A model generated the notes under the pieces. The model did no database searches and was not told where the DNA came from. It saw nothing but the letters and a program-made list of their open reading frames with translations. DNA of 64,000 nucleotides from Jaapia argillacea MUCL 33604 (taxonomy: Eukaryota > Basidiomycota > Agaricomycetes > Jaapiales > Jaapiaceae): assembly GCA_000697665.1 (NCBI GenBank), contig KL197709.1:2293599-2357598 (forward strand), written 5' to 3'. Position numbers and translations under genes: made by a program. This document shows, piece after piece, positions 38,614 to 40,378 of this stretch (positions are counted from its first letter, which is position 1; each line of letters starts with the position of its first letter).

Positions 38614-40378
38614 ATGCCTAACTGGTCTGACCCCGCTGAGATTCAAAAGGACGGAGGTGGGTGGCTGTGCAATGTAAAGGCTACACTTGAGAGGATTAAA
38701 CTTGTTCTATCAGATGTCTTCACCAAACTGATGTTCAGTTTGTTTGGCGTCTACGTTTGGGAATTGTTCATCACCAGCGGGTTTGAGTGGTCTTTGATCA
38801 CTGGGAAACGCAAGTTTAAATGGCCTATGGTAGGTCCCGCTATTATTCCCCGTTGAGCACCCTACTGACTTTTGCTCTAGGGTGAGTAGCAGTGGCAGCT
38901 CTGCAATTATCGTAACAGCCTAACCTTATGAACAGTCTTTTTCTTCTTGTGCCGATATTGCATCCTCTGGGCGTTGATTGGATTGTGCGTTCTCTGTGAA
39001 TACGCATCTCATATTCAACTCACATTATCCATAGAATTATCTCGTTCTCCGTTACCACTGAGGTATGTCACTCGGCTGAACTTACTCGGAACTTGTCTCA
39101 TCGGATCCCATTTTCTAGGTTAATTGCATGGTACGCAAATAATCTGCTGTGTAAGTAGTTTCGAGCCATTTACTCACTCCTTATCCTCGACCAGGCTCTT
39201 TATACGTTCAACTCGGTAAGCTGGGTCACTAATTATCTCACCTTCCATACTTACTCACCCAATTTCAGTGGTGTGGCAATATGACAATTCTCAGCGCATC
39301 AACATCCCTTATGCTCCGAACGTAAGACCTTTATTCTTATCTCCCTTACTTCATAACTTACAGGCTACCACAGGGTTGCCCTATGGGAGCGAAGATGGAA
39401 GATTGTTGTCCCCGTCGGAATCCTCTCGCTCGGTCAATGGGCACTGTTGTGGTACGGCATGTTCATCGTCAAGGCTGAATGGGTGCCCTCCGCCAATGCC
39501 TGCGTCGTCGTCAAGAACAACCACGTATTCCTAAATATCGTGTTCTTCTACAGTAAGCGAATCCATATCACGAGCGCGCTTCGTGCTGACGTCGTTCCCA
39601 CTTCAGCCATGGCATTTGATTGCATAATCTTGCTCCTCACAACCGCCGCGTTGATGAGACAGACCTCCCGTTCTGGACTCTGGGATCTCCTTTTCCGAGA
39701 TGGCCTTGTGTATTTCCTTGTCACATTCACTTGCAATTGTCTTCCCGCGGTATGTTATCGCTTTGACGAGATCATTGTCATCCCGTCTGATCCAGACCTT
39801 TTTCTACTCAGGTCCTGAATGTCCTGAATCTCAACGTGATCATGGATGTCGTCGCTACTGTAAGTGCACCCGGCGTCTCCACCCCTTTCCGACGTTAATC
39901 CTTCTTGGAACAATAGGTCCCTGCCGCAACCATCTCGTTCGTACCTGTTTTCCGAGGCTCGACCTCTGAGCTAACATAACATTATAGTGCCATCGCCGCA
40001 TGTCGAGCCGTGATCCGTCTCCAAGAGTTCGCTAGCGGCGATCCTTACATTCACTCTTCATCCGTCACAAATGATGTTCGGATTGCTCGGTACGGTACCT
40101 CAGTGAAGACCCCGCGATACACCACGACTCGTCCAGAGGTCCATGTGACCACCGACCATATCACCATGCATGAGTTCTCGTGAGCACCACTCTTTCTCCG
40201 ATTTGGAATTCGAGCTAACTTGCTATCCACTAGTCCTTCAGCGAATGATGCACCGTATGATGGCCGTATCACATTCAAGACCTCCCTTGACGAATCCCCC
40301 CCTCCTTTTGATCTAAAGTATAAATCCAAGAAGGAAGAAGTTTCCGCCGATGATTATTCGGGTTCAAGCGCTGTCTGA
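38614..40378 (+). CDS. Seven-helix membrane protein of an Agaricomycete family, with micro-exons
   Basis: This belongs to a large family of fungal proteins with seven predicted helices, mostly uncharacterised and sometimes suggested to be receptor-like. About 430 residues are spliced from many short exons. It begins MPNWSDPAEIQKD. Helix 1 holds LFGVYVWELFITSGFEWS; later helices hold FFFLCRYCILWALIGLIISF, VVPVGILSLGQWALLWYGM, VFFYTMAFDCIILLL and GLVYFLVTFTCNCLPAV. The family motif VPAATISSIAACRAVIRL closes the last helix. A hydrophilic tail follows. Exons as short as 12 (39,119-39,130), 21 (39,195-39,215) and 28 bases are needed. One codon (Val after WPM) requires a single-base exon at 38,881. 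The ligand and role are unknown. Confidence 0.82.

Follow-up and report, generated by a model that had tools for sequence, protein, structure and literature searches.

A predicted one-nucleotide exon between two introns of a DUF6533-like gene in Jaapia argillacea

The locus and its gene model

The window, by which we mean the whole stretch of DNA analysed here, covers 64,000 nt of contig KL197709.1 of Jaapia argillacea MUCL 33604, whose genome of 43.7 Mb comprises 95 contigs. On its forward strand lies an intron-dense gene that we modelled with 13 exons. Exon 1 (38,614-38,829) comprises 72 codons and ends ...KFKWPM on the complete codon ATG. Intron 1 (38,830-38,880; 51 nt, phase 0) follows, with donor GTAGGT, acceptor CTCTAG and the branch site CTGAC, whose A precedes the end of the acceptor by 12 nt. 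At 38,881, a lone G then stands between the AG of this acceptor and the GT of the next donor (CTCTAG-G-GTGAGT at 38,875-38,887). Intron 2 (38,882-38,935; 54 nt, phase 1) has donor GTGAGT, acceptor GAACAG and the branch site CTAAC, whose A is at the same distance of 12 nt from the end of the acceptor. Exon 3 (38,936-38,984) opens with TC, which with the lone G makes up the codon of Val73, and continues with FFFLCRYCILWALIGL, a hydrophobic stretch. The genomic sequence from 38,936 is TCTTTTTC, and the assembly reads CAGTCTTTTTC across the edge of intron 2 and exon 3 (38,933-38,943). The boundaries of exon 1, both introns, the lone G and the next exon had been given in a preliminary description of this DNA, and all of them were correct on the sequence. 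The single base is thus bounded by AG and GT, the introns on either side are each complete in donor, branch site and acceptor and of viable length, and both the reading frame and the alignment with relatives, described below, need the base.

The remaining ten exons lie at 39,035-39,062, 39,119-39,130, 39,195-39,215, 39,269-39,321, 39,374-39,552, 39,607-39,749, 39,812-39,859, 39,917-39,936, 39,988-40,179 and 40,234-40,378, also on the forward strand. All exons beyond exon 3 were positioned manually, guided by the frame and by family motifs. For exon 11, a donor at 39,941 was rejected because it broke the frame between exons 11 and 12, and the donor at 39,937 restored it to the end. With the G kept, the model encodes 368 amino acids with several hydrophobic stretches, and the frame is open to the stop at 40,378. 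The other ten introns are all GT-AG and measure 50-64 nt, so that the 106 nt between exons 1 and 3 (51 + 1 + 54) look like two normal introns. Very small exons are frequent in this hand-placed model, five of the 13 being 28 nt or shorter (1, 28, 12, 21 and 20 nt).

The encoded protein resembles DUF6533 (PF20151) by similarity, with profile scores of 21.4 bits for the first 89 amino acids and 17.2 bits for the full protein, both under the Pfam cut-off of 24.1. A weak match of residues 62-131 to cytochrome b561 in Pfam (18.3 bits, under the cut-off of 23) possibly reflects no more than hydrophobic helices common to both. No relative was found when the exon 8 protein was compared with viral contigs.

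Paralogues in the same genome

A search of the J. argillacea genome with the first 89 amino acids returned 13 rows at E values up to 10. Two were the window gene itself, and the other eleven were assigned, after merging neighbouring rows, to nine other genes (weakest E value 0.08). A search with the full protein added a tenth, L083 (C9:797326-797872); a further hit of the full protein, C22:112677-112823, lay outside the site comparison. These paralogues are distant, with about 32-54% identity to the window gene in the matched pieces. Nine of the ten (L034, L035, L036, L037, L038, L041, L043, L044 and L083) carry a single phase-0 intron of 49-57 nt exactly at the position of intron 1. It follows W[PT]x in each of them and precedes I, V, T or M, with the codon GTN (Val) in three of the nine (L035, L038 and L043). 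The listing of junctions covered seven of the eight intron junctions sought, L037 falling outside its pattern. L040 has no intron at the site and reads W-G-A-V-L-Y-F-A-C-R-Y without interruption, a run equal in length to W-P-M-V-F-F-F-L-C-R-Y of the window gene and with Val in the matching position. Each of the ten other genes examined shows the protein spacing expected from keeping one base. The position of the phase-1 intron 2 is empty in every one of the ten, and none carries a one-nucleotide exon. L038, a close paralogue on the reverse strand, is interrupted by an in-frame stop immediately ahead of the conserved W-P-M motif and is possibly a pseudogene.

A wider search for the DUF6533 family gave 70 rows, with several rows for some genes. 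From these, 49 loci (L002-L031, L045-L050 and L052-L064) were aligned, none of which entered the paralogue count; 22 of the 49 have a phase-2 intron elsewhere, at query position 18-19, and the remainder could not be aligned clearly or lacked an intron at the site. Of the minus-strand loci, ten, with L035, L038 and L040, were read on the correct strand, and L002 and the others not in every case. On the plus strand of L051 (10 kb) no alignment scored above 40. A distant relative, L057 (G000:C3:314600-316100), may have a phase-1 intron placed one codon upstream of the homologous position, on a weak alignment (score 56.5), and this could bear on intron sliding. DUF6533-like genes are numerous in the genome and clustered on contigs C9, C18, C27, C30, C31 and C52, the C9 cluster being nearest to the window gene.

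Reading frame and competing splice readings

With the G kept, the protein across the junction reads ...KFKWPMVFFFLCRYCILWALIGL (Met-Val-Phe-Phe-Phe), which aligns without gaps with all ten other genes at the site and bears out the frame argument of the preliminary description. With the G skipped, it reads ...WPMSFSSCADIASSGR and then stops, 13 codons past the junction and after 85 codons in total, in agreement with the earlier estimate that joining exon 1 directly to 38,936 meets a stop within about 15 codons. Retention of intron 1, of intron 2 or of both likewise gives in-frame stops. Hence, among these products, only two-step removal yields the protein.

The lone G restores the 368-codon frame. 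Three single-intron readings, overlooked in the preliminary description and judged to be worse, are also in frame. These came from an enumeration of donors GT or GC within 38,800-38,900 and acceptors AG before 39,000 at a length of at least 40 nt, and they use donors GC 38,810, GT 38,834 and GT 38,852. An acceptor in the required frame but lying before 38,929 would leave the TGA at 38,929-38,931 in the coding sequence. Among pairs of GT-AG introns (microexon of 1-30 nt, first donor within 38,820-38,850), a single frame-keeping solution was found, which is the one-nucleotide exon. Spliced alignments were scored with a purpose-written script that holds no dedicated rule for one-nucleotide exons and that left the GC donor at 38,810 unscored. 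The reading with the one-nucleotide exon scored 163.5, compared with 145.0 for donor 38,834, 107.5 for donor 38,852, 103.0 for skipping of the base and 102.5 for no intron. The calculated U1 pairing energies were -8.8 kcal/mol for the donor of intron 1 and -11.7 kcal/mol for that of intron 2, the latter reaching -12.0 kcal/mol once intron 1 is removed; the rival GT donors gave -4.0 (38,834) and -1.6 kcal/mol (38,852).

The 106-nt span was shuffled 20,000 times with dinucleotide composition kept and the first six and last three bases fixed. One of the 20,000 shuffles contained an internal YAG-N-GTRAGT with a branch site on each side, a count that serves as a guide and not as a formal probability because the motifs, here and in the variants that follow, were chosen after the sequence had been seen. 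Relaxing the donor to GTRNGY gave two such shuffles, and keeping the strict donor without requiring branch sites gave ten. Any in-frame microexon of up to 25 nt was obtained once with the strict donor and 14 times with GTRNGY, each per 20,000. On both strands of the 64-kb window, the present locus is the one complete structure of this kind, and 40 shuffled windows contained no complete one-nucleotide-exon structure. Across 84 loci of the same genome (239,545 bases, overlapping), no one-nucleotide exon other than this one was found.

On this evidence, the G at 38,881 is very probably a genuine, predicted nuclear exon of one nucleotide, and we hold with good confidence that it is a real exon of a DUF6533-like, multi-helix membrane-protein gene whose two introns are removed one after the other by intron definition. 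The nearest single-intron alternative would be a 102-nt intron at 38,834-38,935 with donor TAG/GTCCCG (the slash marks the splice site), in which exon 1 gains GTAG, the protein becomes W-P-M-V-V-F-F-F-L with one extra Val, and the spliced junction is predicted to read CCTATGGTAGTCTTTTTC. Such an intron keeps the frame, and the DUF6533 profile does not discriminate between the two readings (17.6 bits with the additional Val, 17.2 bits for the one-nucleotide exon, both below 24.1). Weak donors also occur among the paralogues, such as GTACTC in L035 and GTAGCC in L038. Against this stand the difference in U1 pairing between GTCCCG and the GTAGGT four bases upstream (-4.0 versus -8.8 kcal/mol), the fact that this upstream GTAGGT occupies the donor position of nine paralogues, the lack of the extra Val in all ten paralogues examined and the lower alignment score (145.0 versus 163.5). 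Moreover, the presence of an inner acceptor, a branch site and GTGAGT would then be fortuitous, at the level of one in 20,000 shuffles. We consider this reading very unlikely. The two other frame-keeping introns, a GC-AG intron at 38,810-38,935 (donor GCAAGT) and a GT-AG intron at 38,852-38,935 (donor GTTGAG), are close to negligible: the former would remove RKFKWPMV, whose W[PT] is kept in the nine intron-bearing paralogues, and the latter would add seven residues behind a very weak donor (U1 -1.6 kcal/mol) at an alignment score of 107.5.

The main residual doubt concerns a one-base error in the assembly or sequencing. If the assembly lacked one base of the true genome at the beginning of exon 3 or close to it, one 106-nt intron could be spliced normally. 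A single missing base at that edge would suffice, and in the paralogues the first exon base behind the acceptor is G or A. Nevertheless, two complete introns of normal size around a lone base would then be a coincidence of the order seen in the shuffles (one in 20,000), and an intron of 106 nt would be roughly double the size of the model's ten others; we regard such an error as unlikely. It is also scarcely plausible that the gene is decaying, with a base lost and the mRNA out of frame. At least one relative does appear damaged, namely L038 with its in-frame stop just upstream of the site, but elsewhere the 368-codon frame stays open through the ten further introns, each of them GT-AG, and the structure that fully preserves it is unlikely to have arisen by chance.

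Splicing route, known systems and origin

For the preferred one-nucleotide exon, introns 1 and 2 would each be recognised across themselves and removed one by one, in either order. Should intron 1 leave first, the intermediate would read ATGGGTGAGT, and the resulting ATGG/GTGAGT would offer a strong donor for intron 2. Should intron 2 leave first, the intermediate would read CTCTAGGTCTTT and present TAG/GTC, an ordinary acceptor for intron 1. Either order would lead to the mature junction CCTATGGTCTTTTTC, in which G and TC join across both junctions as the codon for Val. Removal of all 106 nt in one step would instead lose the G and give the junction CCTATGTCTTTTTC, with a shifted frame and the stop after 13 codons. 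Ten introns still lie downstream of this early stop, so the skipped form would probably be subject to mRNA decay.

The preliminary description had offered two options, splicing as an exon or a recursive-like step that retains one base. As we read them, both merge into the sequential removal of two ordinary introns, because an exon of one nucleotide leaves little room for the simultaneous binding of splice sites; strict recursive splicing was not upheld. In recursive splicing with a zero-length exon, AG is directly followed by GT at a ratchet point inside an intron. Here one base separates AG from GT, and such a zero-length exon is absent. The [D1,2] stwintron was rejected as well, since no splice site is interrupted at this locus and, once 38,830-38,880 is removed, the complete outer donor GTGAGT is downstream of the junction. 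In a [D1,2] stwintron the inner intron is described as interrupting the outer donor between nucleotides 1 and 2 (PMC12403724, PMC6616335). The accounts in these papers share with the present case short fungal introns, two consecutive splicing reactions and a central G whose fate depends on the path taken. They differ in that the stwintron G belongs to the outer intron and is retained by one-step missplicing, whereas the G here is exonic and would be lost in one-step splicing.

Exons of one nucleotide have been reported in the plant genes APC11 (PMC4674806) and VPS55, the latter backed by RNA-seq and RT-PCR (PMC8831610), and in Fusarium CYP621A, which its authors call the second known and the first fungal example (PMC12940212). 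The term also appears in organelle papers, on placozoan mitochondrial cox1 (PMC5436844) and on fungal mitochondria (PMC12308204, PMC8208691), and non-canonical splicing is the subject of a review (PMC13149111). Our literature search, which took in titles and the openings of abstracts and mostly excluded subscription papers, returned no report of a nuclear one-nucleotide exon in a basidiomycete. As described, the CYP621A case is like the present one in that a fungal nuclear gene has a lone G between AG and GT (AGGGT), a conserved motif stays in frame only with this base and an uninterrupted relative serves as a length marker (PMC12940212); L040, intronless at the site and of the same length, is the counterpart of the intronless CYP621B1 in that study. 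CYP621A differs in being a different gene, from an ascomycete, with an intron span of 139 nt in F. graminearum, and it is documented by 20 orthologues and 18 RNA reads (PMC12940212), whereas the J. argillacea case is known from the sequence of one gene. The exons of APC11 and VPS55 are likewise single bases between two introns and were absent from annotations; they are from plants and are supported by cDNA sequencing, RT-PCR, RNA-seq or constructs (PMC4674806, PMC8831610), unlike our case, which was read from genomic DNA. The APC11 exon is an A within a span of 422 nt (PMC4674806), and it has been studied with minigene constructs in protoplasts. For VPS55 the reported donor is GTRAGT, matched by GTGAGT here, and flowering plants have paralogues with and without the one-nucleotide exon (PMC8831610). 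The J. argillacea exon is thus very probably a rare new example of a kind that these reports had already made known.

Regarding its origin, the phase-0 position is kept in the paralogues, so intron 1 is probably old and the phase-1 intron 2 new. The one-nucleotide exon would then probably have arisen through the appearance of a second intron a single base beyond the old one. Introns 1 and 2 have no detectable similarity (alignment score 2.0, reached by 217 of 2,000 shuffles), and a simple intron duplication is therefore not supported. A search of the genome with the 501-bp region (in which very common words are skipped) found only the self match and no second copy, hence no sign of a repeated introner. 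It is also possible, by analogy with the proposal for CYP621A (PMC12940212), that an exon base was lost and a cryptic one-nucleotide exon was then used. This route would further require an ancestral intron roughly double the length of those of the paralogues.

We tentatively suggest, as a possibility held at well under even odds, that the locus records the gain of an intron one base downstream of the ancestral one and is hence a living intermediate of a one-base intron shift. If so, a gene that went on to lose intron 1 would carry the family's phase-0 intron at phase 1 instead, and one-nucleotide exons would be a route to intron sliding, mirroring the stwintron route proposed by others. A published study reportedly concerns a single-nucleotide intron shift. 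Since its relatives within this genome have retained one intron at the site, the gene offers a direct test of how one-nucleotide exons arise, and the locus could show whether such exons are steps in one-base intron shifts.
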